Source: Akanthomyces muscarius (taxonomy: Eukaryota > Ascomycota > Sordariomycetes > Hypocreales > Cordycipitaceae). Taken from it: DNA of 64,000 nucleotides. Within the stretch, counting starts at the first letter, position 1, and each line of letters begins with the position of its first letter. The stretch lies in the NCBI RefSeq assembly GCF_028009165.1, contig NC_079242.1:3534001-3598000 (forward strand), in the 5' to 3' direction. This document shows, one piece after another, positions 860-26,912 of the stretch. The position numbers were made by a program, and so were the translations under genes. The notes below the pieces were generated by a model that had not been told where the DNA came from, did not search any database, and worked only from the letters and a program-made list of their open reading frames with translations.

Positions 860-3800
860 ATGGCCAGCCCGAGGTCACAGGAAATGGATACGTTGAGAGA
901 GGAGATTGGCTTCCAGCGGGCCATTCTGGACTCGCTTGCCAACGCACAGGATGCAGACTCCAAGAGGGTGCGCATCGGCGCCAGGCGGGAGATTCAGCTG
1001 CTCTTGGATAAGCTCCGAAAGCTTGAAGGTAGCAAGTATCTCTTGCCACCACATAATCTCTACTTGCTAACCGGCTTCACAAGGTCCGACAGCAAGCCCG
1101 TCTCGCTCCGCCCCAACACCAACAGGCTCCCAAAGTGGTACGTTGCCGGGACAAAGAACAGAAACCCGGCCTTTTACTTATACTGACAGCTAAACCCATG
1201 GCAGTTAAACGAGAGCGGAACCCAATCCCTTTAGGTCCGCCTACTACACCCGTCAATCTGCCCAACAGGAAGCGAGAATTTGCACACCGTGGAAGTCCTA
1301 CCAGCCCAGGCATACACCCCAAATCACAAAAAACCACACCAATGTCGGGTGCTAGCAACAGGGACCCGAGGAACTCGATGGATGATATTCTAGACTCGGA
1401 TAACCTGGAGGTTATTGACCTCACAGGGTGCGCAACCTCGCCCCCACCAGCCGAATAGAAACCGGCTAACATGGCTCAGGGACGACCTCGCGGATACGAC
1501 TGGCTACATTGCCGCTCAGATGCGACAGGAGAGTCTGGCTGCACAAAGACAGCGTGACCGCGGAATGGCTAGAAGCCTTCAACAGCAGCATGCACCGCGG
1601 CAGCCTCACCCTCTTCCCAACGAGACGCGGGACTCCCGAACTGATCCATTGCAGCGACTCATGATGAGTGCTCGGACGAGCGGGGCCCCTAGAGCTGGAT
1701 TCACTGATCAGGACTCGAGTGAATTCAAAGTTGAGTACCCATCTCACGAAAACAGGAACAAGGTTTCTGGTGCTGCCAGGGCACAGTTCGACCCCAACGC
1801 CTGGTCCAGTGCAGACCGCGACGCCCTTGTGCGTAGTATACGTATGGGCGAGCAGTATAGACTACATAGCCTCGCACAGCACCAGCAACGTAATGGACGA
1901 CGAGCTCAGTTTCCGGCAATGCCACCGCAGTATCCTAGCTTGCCTGGTGCCTTTCCGGGCTCCGAATACTTTAGCCCAGCCTCTCAGCTTGGCCCGCCTG
2001 CTACCCAGAGATCACCCCATGTTCTTGCGTCGACGACTTGGCCTACTGTTCCCAGTATGGGCTCTTCTTCCAAGATGGGCGAGATCATCAACCGCACAAG
2101 TGGCTTTGCGTATGGCAGCGCAGAGGCTGGGTTTGGTCACCCTCCCGTGTCCGATCGCATGAAATATTTCCTGGACTTGACTCAGGATCAGGAAAAGATG
2201 AGCGACAAGGAACTGGAAGAGCTGCTGGGAAATATTCGTCCGGACGTAGAAATTCCTCTTGAGGAGCGCCAAGATACAGTCGAGGGCCTCAAGGTCAACA
2301 TCTATCACCACCAGCAACTCGCTCTCAAGTGGATGCAAGCCATGGAAGATGGCTCAAACAAGGGTGGTATCCTAGCGGACGACATGGGTCTAGGCAAAAC
2401 TATCTCTGCGATGGCATTGATGGTGACAAGGCCTGCTACCCAGCGACCTAAAACCAACCTCATCATTGGACCCCTGGCCCTTGTTCGTCAATGGGAGGAT
2501 GAAATTCTTACTAAGATATCGGCATCCCATAAGATGTCTGTGTATGTGTACCACGGCAAGAAGACTACCACTGATGAGCTTCTCAAGTACGATGTGGTGC
2601 TCACCACGTACGGCACCATTGCTGCAGAGCTCAAAAGACTGGAAAACTTCATGAAGGAGAACGCTGATGCCGGGAGAAGCGCTGACTACACCAACAACCA
2701 AACTACAGTCAGGTTCCCTTTGCTGCACCCAACAAAGGCCAAGTTCCATCGGGTCATCCTTGATGAAGCCCAGTGCATCAAGAACAAGGAGACACAGACC
2801 GCCAAGGCTTGCCACCGTCTCCGGGCCACCTATCGCTGGTGTCTAACAGGCACTCCGATGATGAATGGCGTGTTGGAGCTTTATTCGCTGCTTGCATTTT
2901 TGCGCATTAGGCCTTACTGTGCTTGGGATAGATTCCGTCAACAGTTTGGCGTTTTATTCGGCAAAAAGGGTGATGAGAAGAGTGTCGCCATGTCCAAGCT
3001 CCGTGCACTTCTCAAAGCCATTATGCTCAGACGCAAGAAGAATTCATTGCTGGATGGCAAGCCCATCTTGACGCTGCCACCCAAGATTGAACAGGTTGTG
3101 TATGCAGAGCTCTCACATGATGAGCGTGATTATTACGACCAGTTGGAAGTCAAGGCCCAGGTACAGTTCAGCAAGTATTTGCGTGAAGGAAGTGTTGGAA
3201 GGAATTATTCCAACATTCTTGTGCTCCTTCTGCGTCTCCGTCAAGCTTGTTGCCACCCTCATCTCAATCTCGACGTTACTGACGCCACTCCCATTACCGA
3301 AGATGAGGTCCTCGAATTGGTCAAACAGCTGCAGCCTAGTATCATTGCCAGAATCAAAGCCGCAAACGGATTCGAGTGTCCTATCTGCTATGATGCCGTT
3401 ATATCACCTCAGTTCTTTATTCCCTGCGGCCACGACAGCTGCAGTCAGTGTCTGAGCCGTATCGTCGACAATGCAACATCGACGAATATTCAACACGGAA
3501 ACGAGAGCGACAAATGCAAATGCCCAGTCTGCCGTGGACAATTCGATCCCAAACAATGCTTTACACTGGAAGCATTCCAAAAGGTGCATATGCCGGAGGC
3601 GCTCAAAGAGGAGCTGAAGGATGAATCGGAAGACGAGTCGGACGACGATCTTGTCGAAGACAGCGAAGCTAGCGATGACGACATCTATTCTGACGATGCT
3701 GTGGACGAAAAGGGCAATTTGCCTGGCTTCGTTGTCGATGACCACTTTTTTAGCGACTCTGATGATACTATGGACACCAAGTCAAATGTCGCCGATATCA

Positions 3801-19363: not shown

Positions 19364-19372
19364 AGGCACAAG
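19364..19372. repeat. Left target-site duplication AGGCACAAG (9 bp)
   Basis: The 9-bp word AGGCACAAG occurs here and again, perfectly, at 26904-26912, each directly outside the inverted-repeat-bounded element. Bases next to it differ on both sides (A/C before, G/A after), so the match is exactly 9 bp. That is the usual duplication length for Mutator-like elements. Confidence 0.85.
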
Positions 19373-19376
19373 GAGC

Positions 19377-19437
19377 ACTAAGCTCACTGGTGGTGGTGGC
19401 GAAGCTATTGGAGGCTAGGGTGGGGCAAAAAGCGGCA
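19377..19437 (+). repeat. Left terminal inverted repeat of the MULE
   Basis: It reads ACTAAGCTCACTGGTGGTGG at its outer end, then GGCGAAGCTATTGGAGG and GGTGGGGCAAAAAGCGG. The reverse complement of 26830-26898 matches this almost base for base, with a one-base gap after ACTA, a handful of substitutions and a 7-base insertion (GGCAAAA-type) in the right copy. Confidence 0.88.
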
Positions 19438-19685
19438 GAAAAATGATTCTCTGCTGCAGATGCTCTGCATATGCAAGGTGCCCGCCTTTTCACTCAAATT
19501 AGTATATGCCTCTTTGTTACTCTGATCTGAAGTTGATCTGAGCAATAGACAATGAAAAAGATCACAATGAATTCACTTCCTTTGAGATACCTCACGTGCC
19601 CTGGCCAGTGCTTAGGAACAATTAACTCATATGCCTAGATCCTGCTCCTCTTCTCCTTTCTCTCTTCTTCATCATCATCAAATTC

Positions 19686-19837
19686 TGTATGCAGGCCCTG
19701 CCCCCGAAGCAAGCACCCAGCATATGCTGACTAGACAGGTAGTAGATATACAACAACTGCGCGCGCCCCCCCGCCATCATCAAAGGTAAGTTTACCCCTG
19801 TTCCTAGAGTACACTCAGCATATGCTAACGAATGCAG
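19686..19837 (+). other. Probable 5' UTR introns of the first MULE accessory gene
   Basis: Two intron-like segments precede the ATG: 19686-19738 (GTATGC...CAG) and 19786-19837 (GTAAGT...CAG). Each holds one GCATATGC, the second continuing into the branch point CTAAC. The exon between them has no in-frame ATG, so it is treated as untranslated. Confidence 0.6.
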
Positions 19838-21200
19838 ATGGATTCTTTCGGAAGTAAGTTTTTGTGTGGTACAATAACTTGAACATGTACTGAGCATATG
19901 CCCAGCAACTTTCACTGACCAGGAGCTGGTCAACTGCGTTGGGGCACCCAGCGAGACAGCCCTTGGCATCCACTGCGGTAAGCACGGGTTGAGCATATGC
20001 TCAAAGCCCACATACTAATTTTTTTCTAGGCGACATGGGCATCGAAGGCCACCACCCCCCCCTCCGTAAGCTCCCTGTCAACCGATTCCAGGCATATGCT
20101 GACCAATTTTCTTAGGCTCGATTCAGATCGCCAAGGTCAACACCATGGTGTAAGTAATACTGAGCATAAGCATATGCCCAGCTAATTCTCAAAAGGTGCG
20201 GCGTCAAGAACGAGCTTGGCGTCATGTGTGGCACCGTGATTGCCTTCTTGGGTGGCTCCGGCCAAGTAAGTGTTGCGCATCTTCCGGGCATATGCCGGGC
20301 TAACAAAAAAAATAGATGAAGAAGCACATCAAGACGATGCACGGCTTCGACCGTAAGTAAGCCCAAGTAAGTTCTGAGCATATGCTGACATCAGTAGCCG
20401 TTTCCTCCGGTCGGCGCAACTTGACCACCGCCGACAAGGCCACCGCCCGCCGGTAAGTAGTTTCAGGCCGATGCTGAGCATATGCTGACCCGTGATAGCT
20501 CCCTCCTCTGGTATGTCCTCTCCCAGGAGTGGAAGAGGGCCGCCTTCCTGGACGAGCCCGGGTAAGTGAAAGAAACCGTCTGAGCATATGCTGAGCTAAC
20601 AACCTCTAGTGCCGGTCCCCTTGGCGGCCCGATCCAGAAGATCGCGGATTTTCTGGAGGCCAAGGCGTGAGTAGAGAATCCTGTGCGAACAAGCTGAGCA
20701 TATGCTGATTAATGTTAGTCGCGCTGATCCCGTCTGGCGCGCCGCGACCGGCGACAAGACTGGTCGTTTCCACCGCTCCCCGCCTGCTGTAAGTTTTAGT
20801 CTGAGCATATGCCGAGTACTCAAGATAATAATACTTTTTCTAGGCGCAGACCACCCCGCGCAAGCGCGGCCGCGGTGTAAGTATTAATCACTACGAACAT
20901 GTACTGAGCATATGCTGACGAGTAATAGGCTGCTGTCCCGGACCGCTCCCCCTCCCCCTCCCAGGGCCCCCCCCGTAAGTATCTGAGCATATGCCCACAA
21001 GGTTCTAGGCTGACCCTCGACAAATAGCCCCGTCGAAGAAGCGCCGCCTTAACAAGGCGGCCACGGGCACCAAGGGTGCCGCCCCTGGTAAGTAGTACGC
21101 CGAGCATATGCTGACAGCATTCTGACAATCAATAGCTGCTACGCGCACCTCCACGCGCCAGGCCCAGCCTTCCAAGAAGGCTGCCGCCAACAAGGCCTGA
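19838..21200 (+). CDS. MULE accessory protein A: CCHH-motif protein with basic tail, 14 tiny exons
   Basis: Exons: 19838-19853, 19906-19977, 20030-20065, 20116-20149, 20196-20265, 20316-20352, 20398-20452, 20499-20561, 20610-20666, 20719-20788, 20844-20874, 20930-20974, 21028-21087 and 21136-21200 (711 nt, about 236 residues). The 13 introns (45-55 nt) each contain exactly one GCATATGC; no exon contains any; another copy follows the TGA directly. The protein has a CCHH motif (C54, C64, H80, H85; HIKTMH), a conserved W/EP/FHRS domain (about 109-167) shared with protein B, and a lysine/arginine-rich tail with SKKRR, suggesting nuclear DNA binding. Two uncertainties: the exon 11 donor must be GTGTAA at 20875 to keep frame, not the better GTAAGT two bases on. 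A GTG donor at 20236 would remove ten residues and give the same C-x5-H spacing as protein B. Function is not known. Confidence 0.75.
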
Positions 21201-21757
21201 GCATATGCCCAGCCTTTCCTCGGGACTTGGACAGTTTTTTGCTTTGTTGTTTTCGTGAATTTCAGGAGGGTGCTCAGCATATGCTGAGAGGCAGGCGGCG
21301 ATGTTTTTGTTCCCGGCAAGCAGACCGGAAGGATACCCTCGGCATATGCCGAAAAATAAAAAGTCATTTCCCAATCTTTTCTGTCCCTCATGTGCATGTT
21401 GTGAGCATATGCCGAGAGATTTAAACGGCTACAGGCTGCCAGCTGCGCCTAGCTAGCGTAAGGCAGGCAGGCTACCCTACAGACCGCGCGGCGAGGCAGT
21501 CAACTTTTTTTCGGCATATGCTGAAATTCCAATACATAATACGGGCTAGTAGCGGGCAGGCAGCCCCTGGACACTTACTAGGTTATTTCGTAATCTAGCA
21601 TATGCTCGCTATAAGTTATGCTTACTATAAAGATATTTCTATGCGGAGGAAAAATGCGTAAGCTATGGATTAATAATAATCCGTCCCGCCTAGTATAGAA
21701 ATTAATCAGGCATATACCCCTCTTCCTCCTTACATCTTCTACTGAGATTCCTGTAAG
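21201..21757. other. Spacer between MULE accessory genes, six palindromes
   Basis: Non-coding stretch after the stop of protein A. GCATATGC begins at 21201, 21277, 21342, 21405, 21514 and 21598, with a gcatatac variant near 21710. It should hold the terminator of gene A and the promoter of gene B. Composition turns AT-rich from about 21540. Confidence 0.65.
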
Positions 21758-22832
21758 ATGGCGCGACAACTTCTATTAGAGTATACAGATATTGATGTGA
21801 TAAATGCATCAAATCCATCAAAGTTTGGCTTCCATCATGGTCAGAATATTTATATCACTTTATCAGCATATGCTAACTCTATTTTAGGACCAGTTGAGAA
21901 GAAAAACACACAAATTCTCTCCCGTGTCAACACACACATTTGTGATATTATTGTCAACAGTACTGGCAGAATGTGTGGAAGGGTATATACTGAGAATGTG
22001 AATGTAGGTGGCCTAACATATGCCAGGCGCTTGCTAGGGATATACTTATCAAATACTTTAGTTTTATCGTCACATTCGAACAGCACATCCCTACCATATC
22101 CGCCTCCCAAATAAGGCGAATATATCAGACGAAGAACGCCTAATTGGAGAGAAGTAAGTATTCTTTTAGAATAGACGTGACATATGCTTACACTTAGTAG
22201 TACTATTCGCGCCTGGGTTCTCAATGGCGGTTGGCGTGATGCTCGGTACCAGCGTGAGCCAAAAAACCTACCAAAGACCTCATTTTTATATAAGGTAGCG
22301 ACTGAGCTTGAGTATCTTGCGTAGGTATCTACTATTCATATTATACGCATATGCTAATAATCTTATAGCCAACAAGACCTAGCATTTGCACAGAAATATG
22401 GTAGACAATTCCATCGTTCAAGTTTCCGACAGATGTTGTTCGAAAATACATTCAACACACCGTGTGCATATGCTCACGGTGTGCCAGTCTCTCCCACATT
22501 AGATCCTACAACCACACGATCAGAGCGGGATCAAACCAGCATATGCTCAGACAACGGTCAACCAGACACCACAATTAACACAGACTCCTCACTTGAGGAC
22601 ACAGCCAGAATGTACACAGCTAGCAGTCAGCATATGCCTGAGGATATTACCTCTACAGAGTCCGTGATAAGAGTTAATAAGTCGCAGAGCATATGCTACG
22701 CAACTACTTCACCTAAAAAGACTACCCGGGCTTTACAAAAGTTATCACAAGTAAGCCACTTAGCATTTTCCTAGCATATACTTATTTAATATCTAATTTT
22801 CAATCTAGCGTAAAAAAACGAAAAAAAACTAG
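21758..22832 (+). CDS. MULE accessory protein B: CCHH-motif paralogue of protein A
   Basis: Exons: 21758-21839, 21888-21982, 22062-22153, 22201-22320, 22369-22750 and 22809-22832 (795 nt, 264 residues). The motif is C46, C57, H63, H68 (MCGRFYRHIRTAHP region). A second domain (about 92-148, with AWVLNGGW, REP and FHRS) aligns with protein A. The last 24-nt exon adds RKKTKKN, a nuclear-localisation-like tail. Two intron positions match protein A: after the GFHHG/GIHCG glycine (phase 1) and after CGR/CGT (phase 0, if A uses its alternative donor). The first intron has a weak GTCAGA donor; it is accepted because position, branch point and alignment agree. GCATATGC occurs in exon 5 as AYA, SIC and HMP codons. 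Probably a DNA-binding partner or regulator of the transposase; inferred only. Confidence 0.75.
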
Positions 22833-22877
22833 CTTATTCTTTTTTCCTTTCCTATATATAAATTAGTTAAGTATCTT

Positions 22878-25800
22878 TTAAAACTCTCTTAAGCATATAC
22901 CTTGTCTGAGTCTTTGACACTTTTCTTTTATATGTTGAATATCCTCTTGAATAAGATCTTTATACTCCTCTCTGACCACCTTCTGCTGTAGAAGAAGTGC
23001 AGAAATCTCAGCATCATCAAATTGATCTATCTCTGGCATATGCCGGGGCCGTTTTGGTCGTAGAGATATCTGAGAAATTGATGGTAGTGAGCACGTTGCT
23101 GATGAGCTAGAGCGATCCCGTTTTTGTTGTTGTGGTGTTTTTGGTTCCTAGAGAAAGTTAGTCCTGGGAATATGCCTATATTATGTCTATTACTTACTGG
23201 TTTACAATCTGCATCAGTAATTGGTCTAATACGGCTTGGTGTTAAAGCTCTTATACTGATGATTGATAGATCATCATCCTGGCATATGCCCGCGGCTGGG
23301 ACTGTAGATAGATCGATTGTTTCCAACTGATCACTATCTAACAGGCTATTAAGCTCAATTACAGTCATATGCCTAACTAGTGCTGGTGCTGTGAGAGGCT
23401 CTAGTAATGCAGTTGATGCCCCATCGGTTTTGGGCGTATGCCTACCGACTGCCGAGGAGGGCCGGGGCGTACCTGTCCCCTGTATTTGCGGATATGCCGG
23501 TTGTTGTGCAGGCATATGCTCCGCCAATGTCTGCACATCTTCTTGTGGTATATTTTGTGGTGATGGAGTAGGTGGTGTTATACGTGTATTCTCGGCATCA
23601 TATAGGCCTACGTTGTTGGCCTGTATTGTGTGTTGTGACGAAGAGATTGCCGGCATGTGCCCAGAACCTGTTGAGGACGGGGGCTCAGAGGGTTGCAAGG
23701 ATCTTTGTGGGACAGGAGTTGTTGGTGTATCGGAGGCATATGCTGACGCAGGGCTTGAGCCTTCGGGTCGAACATGGTAGGGATTCCGTGGGTTAAGGGG
23801 TAGGTTTGGCTGAGAGATACGTCGATCTTGCGCTATGCGATTAGTAGTATCTCGTCGAAGATATGCTCGGCTTATGCGGGCAACAGGCCCTCGATTATGC
23901 CATGTTACTGCTACTCCTAGGTCTGTTTGTGTTTGGACCTTGAAGCATTTCTCCAGCACATGCTGACGTAGCCCTAGGATACCTGATAGTAGGCTGCGGT
24001 GCTGTCCTACAGCAGAGTAGTCTTCCCAATGGCCACTCTCTGCGATATTCGTATTCTTCTGAGCATATAATCGCCATTTTGGAGGCACCTTTGAGGCACT
24101 TGCAACAAGCCCAGCAACAACCCAGGGAGCTGTTTTTGCTTTAAACCAACTTGCTCTCTCAGGGTGTGCCTCAATAAGCTGACGTACTTCCTCATTATAG
24201 ATCTCAGCAGATGGTGAGTCTAGGAGCGACATATATGTATACTCATCAGGAGCATCAGGATGGTTATGTCGCCAGTTCCGTTGGACATGTACCTGGCAGA
24301 AGATAAGCACATGCTCTAAATGTTCTTGCCAGGTCCATCGTGAATCAAGACTTTGTAAGTAATTGCCAAGTCCTAATGATATTAGCTATATTCTCCGTAT
24401 ATGCTGTGTAGCTGCTCACCATGTGCTTGCTTCCCATCCATATCTGTCGTCACTGTATAGAACATAGGAGGAGGTCTTCCGTGTGGCATATGCTCGAGAT
24501 GGTGCCAGCGTATGCTAAAGCCACCAATGTCACCAAGCCACCGAAACATTGCTGCGAACATCTATTTAGATCAGTAGTGTCCTGGGTATATGCTGGGCAC
24601 TTACTTACATCAGTGTATGCCTCTGTAGTTGTGATTGTTGTTATAGCATAAATATATGTTTCGCGAACTAGATATGTAGGTTAGAGATAGGTATTATCTG
24701 GACTGGGCATATGCTTACGATTAGAAGTGTCATTCCAGCTTGAGATGCTAAGAATATTTGCTTTCCCTCGAATCATCTTAAAAGATAGATCAATTTGTAT
24801 ACATCTTGCCTTCTGAGCAGCAGAAGCCTGGCTTTTTGAGCATATGATGATCCAATACTCAGAGCCGTAGAATTTGATCTCACGTATCCATTGCTGGTTT
24901 GGCTCACGGATTTGGTCAAGGCAGAATTCTCGTTGTACACCTAGCATGGTTAGCGCATATGCCCACAACATTCTAAATAGCACTTACCTGCAATATCATT
25001 ACCCTCAGGGTATTTAAGGAATCGTGCACGTATAAGTATTGCATGTATTTTATCCTCACAATTCAATGCTGGGTGGATGCTCCGAATATTCTTAGCCTTA
25101 TACTTTTTAAGGAATTCATTAAGTAAAGGGCTTAAAAATATTTTCCCTATAGGGTATGTTATTAGCATATGCTTTAAATAGTATAGAATAATACTTACGA
25201 GCAGTTAGATATAATAAATCATCTCGCTCAGAGAGGGCATAAATAAGATGTTTAAGAATATCTTGTGGTATGTTTTTTGGTGGCGGTGGAACGTGGGTAT
25301 GGACGTCGCGTGTGCTGAGCATATACCAAGGGAAACGGCGGTTATTAATTGGTATGTAGACGTCAAATTTAACACGGCAACTGTGTGGACGTAGGCGGGA
25401 TATATCCTTATGCTGAAATACTATATATTATTAGCATATGCTCACTCTACATTCTATATATTCTTATCACTTACCACAGTCCTTTCTCCGTGTATTTGAG
25501 GCATCCCAAAAAGAGCAAGTATCGCGTAGAGGCTCCTCGGGCTCGTGTAACCCATACTCGACCATATGCTGAAGATATGCTAGGTCAATATTACCAATAA
25601 CAACTCGGAGCTGTGTGTGCTGACAGGCCTCATTCGATGTTTGTGGACAGCCAATAAAGTACTGCCCGTCAGTCTGGACCCAGGTCATTAGTTGCTCTTC
25701 GCAGCATATGCCTGGTAGACTCTCAGGGTCTTCTGATACAGGGAGTAGCCGACAAGGGCGTCGTGAACTATCCCATATCTTCTTATATGCCAGGTATGCT

Positions 25801-26555
25801 GCTTCCGTCTTCATTCGTGTGCGTTCGTCAATCTCCATGGTATCAATACTTGTGGCATATGTTTGGCGTATGCGGCCAATATTCTCTGGGTTAAAACCAT
25901 TATTCCAGTCGTCTTGGTAGGTTATAAGATCTTGCTTGATTTTTGAGCAGACTCGTATTCCAGTGCATTTGAAGGCCATATGCCAGCACTGTGCCTGCGC
26001 TCCTTTTCCAAGCATCTGCTCCCTATCTCTAGTCAGTATATGCTCAGCATCTGCACACTTGAAGAATTTACTCACAAGAATACCAGAGAAACAGTTGTGC
26101 ATTTGCCAACCCGAGTTGAACCAAACTGTACCTAGTAGATAGTGAGCATAGCACTGGCATATGCCCAGTATTACTTACAATACTCATTTGCTCTTGTATG
26201 AAGTTTGTCACTTCCTCAACCTTATCGCCAGCATATGTCGGGGATATATTTGGTATAATATATACCAATCCATCCATCGATGCTTTTGGATAGCTTGGAA
26301 GAGCAATGCAATCAATCACTTTGCGAACGCTCACAGCACGCGCTCCGCGCCCACTGAGCATAAGCCCAGACTCTTCAATAATCTCTTTCGGGATATTAAA
26401 AAAGCTTGTAGGGTCATCGTCTTCGAGAGTGTTGGCGAATAGGTCCTTGATGTTGTTAGCATATGCCCAGAGCCTTATTAGGGTATTCTTACCTCATTAT
26501 GCTGAAACAGCTGCCCCCAAGGGTTCACCGCGCTTGACTCTGGTGATGACATCAT
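22878..26555 (-). CDS. MULE transposase (DDE, Mutator-like), 11 exons
   Basis: Exons in transcript order: 26493-26555, 26179-26445, 26076-26131, 25475-26022, 25199-25420, 24988-25146, 24719-24940, 24609-24667, 24420-24561, 23198-24372 and 22878-23147 (3183 nt, 1060 residues); all ten junctions keep frame. Family marks: a Cys-rich N-terminal region ending HTHVPPPPKNIPQDI near 352-366, as in fungal MULE zinc domains; first Asp in QIDLSFK (D489); second in TTDMDGKQAHGLGNYL (D572/D574); CQVHVQRN (C605, H608); and ESGHWED (E691 or E696). A long S/P/T/Q-rich region (about 740-980) follows, then a K/E-rich, probably coiled C-terminus. Six introns carry exact GCATATGC and four carry variants; six further copies fall in exons. 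The residue assignments are inferred from MULE patterns. It should cut and join the element's ends in the nucleus. Confidence 0.85.
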
Positions 26556-26829
26556 GTAATAATATTGAAGTTGATTTTTGTTGTGTGTGATAATAGCATA
26601 TGTATGGCATATGCGAGGCTTATGTGCTTTATCATTTTTCTCCTTGTTATCTCTTCACTCAATTTTCTGACCGTCTTTTGCGCCATAGCATGAGAATTCT
26701 TCTACACCGTATTTATGGCCGGGGGCATATGCAGAGCTGGCTGCCGGCATATGCATGGCGTATGCAGATGAGCTTTCCGACAAGCGCACAGTACGTCCAT
26801 TGCATATGCATTGCATATGCGGTCAAGAC

Positions 26830-26898
26830 TCACCGCTTTTTGCCTTTTTGCCCCACCTGAACCTTCAATAGCTTTACGACCACCACCAGTGAGCTAGT
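26830..26898 (-). repeat. Right terminal inverted repeat of the MULE
   Basis: Read on the minus strand, it begins ACTAGCTCACTGGTGGTGGT, then AAAGCTATTGAAGG and AGGTGGGGCAAAAAGGC. It mirrors 19377-19437. Five C bases (26899-26903) lie between it and the right target-site duplication; on the left, four bases (GAGC) occupy the equivalent place. Confidence 0.88.
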
Positions 26899-26903
26899 CC
26901 CCC

Positions 26904-26912
26904 AGGCACAAG
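26904..26912. repeat. Right target-site duplication AGGCACAAG (9 bp)
   Basis: Perfect partner of 19364-19372. It marks the right edge of the inserted element. Confidence 0.85.

Follow-up and report, generated by a model that had tools for sequence, protein, structure and literature searches.

What would lead a transposable element to carry the same short palindrome along its whole length, in introns, exons and spacers? The question is raised by Akanthomyces muscarius, an insect-infecting fungus, in whose genome a stretch of 64,000 nucleotides (hereafter the window) hosts a mobile element of 7531 bp at positions 19373 to 26903, present in five full-length genomic copies and in one further copy altered by repeat-induced point mutation (RIP). 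Between positions 19467 and 26820, the element holds 45 exact sites of the palindrome GCATATGC, with the extended consensus CYSRGCATATGCYSRG, besides 35 sites with one mismatch. We suggest that these sites form a dispersed self-recognition array, which would be bound by one or both of two element-encoded proteins, A and B, acting as dimers, and would confer accessibility in the manner of the Arabidopsis VANC proteins; from sequence, we give this reading as a whole a probability of about 0.4.

An array specific to one element family

The motif array is specific to the element family. The count of 45 within the element is what the earlier note on this DNA had estimated for 7.5 kb, whereas its author found none in the other 56 kb, which has to be corrected, since one exact GCATATGC occurs at position 3586. 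The 46 exact sites of the whole window compare with a mean of 1.28 and a maximum of 5 after dinucleotide shuffling, and none of 100 shuffles reached 46. Sites with one mismatch are also concentrated in the element, with 4.6 per kb against 0.46 per kb (26 sites) in the remaining 56.5 kb of the window, and sites with two mismatches stand at background, with 30 in the element and 227 in the rest of the window (4.0 per kb in both).

The full-length copies are located on C2 (that of the window), C3, C4 (two copies) and C6, and the degraded one on C1. Throughout the 36.2-Mb genome, the core GCATATGC occurs 831 times, which by subtraction leaves about 600 occurrences outside the copies, and RGCATATGCY occurs 310 times, including 36 in the window copy. 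The extended site CYSRGCATATGCYSRG is found 31 times, six in each of the five copies (30) and one elsewhere, and hence the genome-wide counts did not reveal the equal density in unrelated genomic DNA that the earlier note had named as contrary evidence. Pairs of sites 60 to 89 bp apart number 55 genome-wide; among the 50 matches listed, the five copies account for 48, the other 2 being isolated, and the remaining 5 are as many as are lacking from the C6 copy, assuming that it has 11 like those on C3 and the first on C4. Chance or composition as the source of the array is ruled out by the shuffles, the counts by mismatch class and the genome-wide counts of the extended site.

When all 45 sites are taken together, the flanks of the core at positions +1 to +4 are palindromically biased (p between 1.5e-4 and 6e-13); in the 22 that lie outside introns, bias is seen at +1 (p=2e-3), +3 (p=0.03) and +4 (p=1.5e-5). 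The site looks like a palindrome of about 14 to 16 bp, as for a dimer, and the candidate binding site in its written-out form is CTCAGCATATGCTGAG. A dense array could equally be selected by a host DNA-binding factor, for example one that opens chromatin or forms a boundary, in which case A and B would do something else. Such a factor would have few native sites, because the site is rare outside the copies: a single one of the 31 extended sites lies elsewhere, and the core, with its roughly 600 outside occurrences, is met once in the 56.5 kb of the window outside the element. We consider this explanation quite unlikely.

Sites in introns, exons and spacers

Three genes were predicted within the element. 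Gene A (19838 to 21200, forward strand) encodes a C2H2-like protein of 237 amino acids with a basic tail; each of its 13 coding introns holds one exact site, and its 714-nt coding sequence none. An automatic model of this gene took the wrong frame at several introns and was replaced by one built manually on donors, acceptors and reading frame, with which the NCBI protein LMH87_011223 was afterwards found to agree in the 13 coding introns, one splice site being shifted by 6 nt; the protein is longer than the model by 5 N-terminal residues and deviates from it by 2 residues at one of the splice sites. Two possible introns of the 5' untranslated region (UTR), at 19687-19738 and 19786-19837 on the forward strand, hold one exact site each; they were our own choice, without independent support, and LMH87_011223 implies instead a single intron at 19739-19837, which contains the second of these two sites. 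Gene B (21758 to 22832, forward strand) encodes a 272-residue paralogue of A and has five introns, two with an exact site and three with a one-mismatch site, besides four exact sites within the exon encoding its C-terminal tail. The B introns were set by hand as well; four of the five match introns of A in position and phase, and the donor of the first (GTCAGA) is unusual, in-frame read-through of this intron being possible. Gene T (22878 to 26552, reverse strand), the predicted transposase gene, codes for 1061 amino acids and has 10 introns, six with an exact and four with a one-mismatch site, and six exact exonic sites. Its exon choice near 26029-26178 is uncertain, and the version with 10 introns was preferred; a motif-blind automatic model has nine introns, each with a site of at most one mismatch, and leaves the site at 26157 in an exon.

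All 30 predicted introns (2 in the UTR, 13 in A, 5 in B and 10 in T) thus hold a site, exact in 23 and with one mismatch in 7, and when the two unsupported UTR introns are excluded the count is 28 of 28, of which 21 are exact. The chance that 15 uniformly placed sites would land one in each of the 15 A introns is about 1e-11. A general feature of host introns was rejected, since no site was found in any of nine host-like candidate introns elsewhere in the window and the core is rare outside the copies. Full occupancy of the introns would also be expected if the palindrome acted at the RNA level, as a splicing signal peculiar to the element and adjacent to the branch site (A or B might then regulate splicing), and many intron sites read GCATATGCTGAC or GCATATGCTAAC/T, overlapping the CTRAY branch consensus. 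However, 22 of the 45 exact sites lie outside predicted introns, in exons, in the A-B spacer and in DNA less than 200 bp from the right end, the distance from site to 3' splice site ranges from 4 to 39 nt, and the palindromic bias of the flanks persists outside introns, although weaker; the probability of an RNA-level function therefore appears low.

Ten of the 45 exact sites are in predicted coding sequence. Compared with synonymous-codon shuffles, exact exonic sites are in excess both in B (4 against a mean of 0.50) and in T (6 against 1.87), with none of 1000 shuffles reaching the observed number in either gene, and the 19 one-mismatch exonic sites of T (shuffle mean 8.3) also exceed all 1000 shuffles. 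The exact exonic sites of B and T are distributed over reading phases 0, 1 and 2 as 2, 4 and 4, and since all three frames are used, DNA rather than peptide must be what is selected; a peptide repeat as the source of these sites was rejected on the same ground. All four exact exonic sites of B lie beyond the portion alignable to A, and four of the six in T beyond the putative catalytic E. The T protein contains 7 HM dipeptides against 0.7 expected (none of 5000 shuffles), and no significant enrichment of IC or AYA was found in it. Because sites occur in all predicted introns and in all three frames, and because exact sites exceed synonymous shuffles in B and T, we are highly confident that the palindrome is selected at the DNA level.

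The DNA between and outside the genes is occupied as well, with six exact sites and one one-mismatch site in the A-B spacer (21201 to 21757) and five exact and two one-mismatch sites in the right subterminal region upstream of T (26553 to 26903); the site map agrees with the earlier description of sites spread over the genes of both strands, introns, spacers and subterminal DNA. In the region 19700-21620, chosen after the sites were seen, 21 exact sites follow each other at a mean of 94 bp (range 63 to 118 bp; coefficient of variation, CV, 0.17), an evenness reached by none of 20000 shuffles and by 2% of trials in which sites were placed at random inside A introns. Over the whole element, the 80 sites with at most one mismatch have a mean spacing of 93 bp, a CV of 0.57 and a largest gap of 351 bp, and again none of 20000 shuffles was as even. 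Decay of the sites is uneven, 22 of 26 being exact up to 21620 and 23 of 54 beyond. Helical phasing was rejected, with a resultant of at most 0.24 (period 10.6 bp, 85 distances).

In an introner-like or neutral spread, introns or short motif units would be copied around and the motif carried passively. Nine introns of A are absent from B, and a 26-bp motif-bearing unit (21506 to 21531, forward strand), single in the window and C6 copies, occurs twice in the C3 copy and both C4 copies, which differ in length by a 56-bp stretch with one additional site; both observations are in line with such a process. However, the introns are not copies of one another, as introners are: the repeat families of the element measure 25 to 42 nt, match their reference at 60 to 86% and in most cases have the motif at their centre, no similarity extends over a whole intron, and copying would leave the exonic excess over synonymous shuffles to be explained. 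We regard this origin as very improbable. The distribution of the palindrome across introns, spacers, exons and genes of both strands appears best explained by a DNA-binding array.

Candidate readers and the predicted transposase

We think it probable that the array is read by a protein that the element itself encodes. A and B would be the obvious candidates, since no genes other than these two and T were found in the element and both products are finger-like. Their paralogy, proposed before, is borne out by an identity of 31% over about 130 amino acids, with a local alignment score of 119 against a shuffle mean of 27.9 (standard deviation 4.3; none of 1000 shuffles as high). Despite this paralogy, the GC content at third codon positions is 0.82 in A and 0.38 in each of B and T. 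The previous designation of both as CCHH proteins stands insofar as a C-x9/10-C ... H-x4-H arrangement can be recognized by eye in each, but no Pfam finger model matched above its cut-off; more broadly, neither A nor B nor T reached the cut-off of any Pfam family, and no VANC family was recognized by profile. A candidate host paralogue of A at C1:5317036 (E 0.145) was rejected, the sole open frame of at least 150 residues there being unlike A by eye.

As for T, the transposase of Mutator-like elements (MULEs) has a DDE triad with a CxxH between the second D and the E, and a layout of this kind can be traced by eye (IDLSF at 489, TTDMDG at 571, CQVHVQRN at 606 and NTNIAES at 687). The spliced protein matched no Pfam family at E up to 10, and two T open frames matched nothing in NCBIfam. 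A search of the genome with the profile PF10551 found four other places, T not among them, and T gave no convincing alignment with open frames from three of these loci; that other MULE loci share the motif was rejected, since all four (about 3.2 kb each) contain zero GCATATGC. No relative of T was found at E up to 1e-3 among about 5.8 billion proteins, in a search that requires shared exact words, taken for T from its first 500 residues, and 14 pattern matches of its largest open frame in viral contigs were not confirmed.

The boundaries of the element are clear. The nonanucleotide AGGCACAAG at 19364 to 19372 is repeated exactly at 26904 to 26912, and an exact 9-bp target-site duplication (TSD) flanks all six copies, each with a different sequence; MULE duplications range from 8 to 11 bp (PMC6446971). 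The terminal inverted repeats (TIRs) extend over 19373 to 19476 (forward strand) and 26800 to 26903 (reverse strand), with outer arms of 52 nt at 19381-19432 and 26844-26895 that are 87% complementary, and the alignment of the ends reaches 98 columns at 77.6%. The inverted repeats and the duplication of the earlier note were thus both found. Its MULE transposase can be kept as far as the TSDs and the putative DDE/CxxH-like layout go, but T matched no Pfam model, two of its open frames matched no NCBIfam model, no convincing alignment was obtained with open frames from three MULE loci of this genome, and the label MULE, in our judgement, fits the element partly.

RIP, mobility and the proposed role of the array

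The degraded copy (C1:6921783-6929361) has undergone C-to-T change on both strands at 77 to 89% of CpA, 56 to 65% of CpG and 4 to 6% of CpC and CpT, which is the signature of RIP. Each motif site offers CpA on both strands, and no exact site is left in the three stretches compared (40 alignments, representing 38 distinct sites of 45, with two in an overlap). Since RIP erased every site examined in this copy, the array does not prevent RIP, and the anti-silencing role of the earlier note does not hold in its widest form. A local protection of motif sites was also considered and set aside: none of the 22 and 24 substitutions of the C3 and first C4 copies falls on an exact site, numbers too small to tell, and one of the four in the second C4 copy does (24955). 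Two loci of the genome, C2:4639982 and C3:2362046-2362912, match the cytosine methyltransferase family PF00145; another isolate of A. muscarius was reported to lack both a rid gene and signs of active RIP (PMC11354060).

Over the 6.7 to 7.1 kb compared, the window copy is matched exactly by that on C6 and differs by 4 substitutions from the second C4 copy; the C3 and first C4 copies have the 22 and 24 mentioned above. These last two (C3:1081168-1088748 and C4:649558-657138) share 21 C-to-T or G-to-A changes, 20 of them at CpA, yet have different flanks and TSDs; one of the 21 (19480) is also found in the second C4 copy. The shared changes include a strand-biased run at 24112-25475 (19 C>T at CpA and one G>A), which puts three TAG in a T exon, and in both copies the length differs by 1 bp at two places, one of which (about 20054) is inside an exon of gene A. 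Near-identical copies at different TSDs imply that the element was recently active, although not all five are intact, and the lesions shared by different insertion sites imply that one of the C3 and first C4 copies apparently moved after light RIP, probably with transposase supplied in trans. Two fragments were also observed: the first 278 bp of the element alone at C10:1225852-1226128 (98.9%, with one exact site), and about 100 bp resembling its terminal repeat at C11:330751-330842 (79%, no exact motif), neither with a second inverted repeat within 3.1 kb. The C11 fragment is a putative trace of a related family.

Movement of a copy with three TAG in its transposase gene would also suit an array that serves transposition itself, in which A and/or B, or T, would bind in the manner of TnpA, fold the element and pair its ends for excision, or the coat would prevent self-insertion. 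TnpA of En/Spm provides a precedent (PMC2613891), and five exact sites are found near the right end (26607-26820). The left end, however, has one exact site only (19467), and the motifs are not confined to subterminal regions as TnpA-type sites are, the densest and most even part of the array being gene A and the A-B spacer, 0.3 to 2.2 kb inside the element. Coverage of the whole length fits coating or marking better than end-pairing, and a role in the transposition complex is, in our opinion, unlikely.

Returning to self-recognition, selection would have accumulated a palindrome of 14 to 16 bp with the core GCATATGC at intervals of about 95 bp wherever the sequence allows, that is, in introns, spacers, subterminal DNA and tolerant coding stretches. 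A dimeric binder, most likely the paralogous C2H2-like A and/or B, would coat the element through the array and so mark it as self, ignoring DNA without the array, and the most likely consequence would resemble that of VANC, with the entire element kept open and expressed against host chromatin silencing. Anti-silencing is the leading reading because of the VANC precedent: the Arabidopsis protein VANC21 binds along its own MULE, at a short motif found in introns, between genes and in the terminal regions, and the entire element loses methylation (PMC5735166). By this analogy, anti-silencing or maintained expression may be the main function, a proposal that we make tentatively.

Several observations weigh against this reading. 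VANC targets are tandem repeats in non-coding DNA, whereas the sites described here are mostly single and also exonic. B matches zf-C2H2 only below threshold (17.1 bits, with a Pfam cut-off of 25.2), the Pfam finger models gave no match with the A protein, and the first C-C spacing of 9 to 10 residues, as measured by eye, is unusual. Among the same 5.8 billion proteins, no relative of B was found (E up to 0.01), and for A only the A. muscarius protein itself; absence of relatives of A, B or T is weak evidence, because the search depends on exact words and transposon proteins are often unannotated. In addition, B has a single one-mismatch exonic site, with no excess over the synonymous-shuffle mean of 1.8; the exact sites by themselves, taken from end to end of the element, are spaced no more evenly than expected by chance (CV 0.83, matched in evenness by 13.7% of shuffles); outside introns the flanks are less biased, and +2 is not significant there (p=0.07); and, with one copy heavily and two lightly mutated, the RIP arm of silencing is unblocked.

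Among the closest known systems is VANDAL21 (Hiun), a DNA transposon with accessory genes and a short motif repeated in its own introns, intergenic and terminal DNA, where motif number changes through tandem repeats (PMC5735166, PMC10398659). The present element likewise carries a family-specific short motif through introns, spacers and ends, and its 26-bp unit varies in number by tandem repetition. Different from VANDAL21, the element is fungal and lives in a host whose DNA shows RIP, the accessory proteins appear C2H2-like rather than VANC, and the function is putative; the motif is a palindrome, mostly single, spaced by about 95 bp and present in every predicted intron and in coding exons, so that with 10 of 45 exact sites in coding sequence and one local tandem unit it is not a tandem motif of non-coding DNA. 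With the En/Spm (CACTA) elements and their TnpA it has in common many short repeated motifs and an accessory DNA-binding protein (here a candidate), but motifs are subterminal there and the soybean element makes a 3-bp duplication, in contrast to the whole-length array and 9-bp TSD found here (PMC2613891). Fungal MULEs of the Mutyl/Hop group are also ascomycete elements with a TSD of 9 to 10 bp, more than one open reading frame (ORF) and a C2H2 finger; Mutyl carries a 22-bp TIR and, as its second ORF, MutB, where the present element has two paralogous accessory genes and a transposase undetected by the profiles used (PMC6446971); the present element also shows a motif array. Fungal DNA transposons with TET/JBP dioxygenases have similarly been proposed to use a gene of their own against silencing, but through an enzyme thought to act on methylated cytosine, whereas Pfam recognized no dioxygenase here and the feature is a sequence-specific array (PMC12730594). 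Introners, too, tie unusual intron richness to a transposable element; the introns described here, however, lie inside the element, are not mutual copies and share only a palindrome resembling a binding site (PMC9860276). The titles and abstract openings listed in searches of open-licence literature contained no description of such an array, and among the matches listed for GCATATGC as a term none concerned transposons.

In the literature consulted, sequence-specific self-marking by a transposon is described for the VANDALs of Arabidopsis. If the present reading is true, a fungal case with another type of protein and another layout of sites would suggest that such marking evolved repeatedly, here in a host with RIP. 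It is possible, though doubtful, that introns became the carriers of an address label, in that selection for an even array over the full length, read by the element's own zinc-finger pair, drove the gain or retention of many minimal introns with one palindrome each and, where introns are missing, changed codons and even residues of the element's own proteins, as an independent fungal form of self-marking or anti-silencing. A selfish element with one site in each intron would then have a concrete adaptive reason to gain or keep introns.

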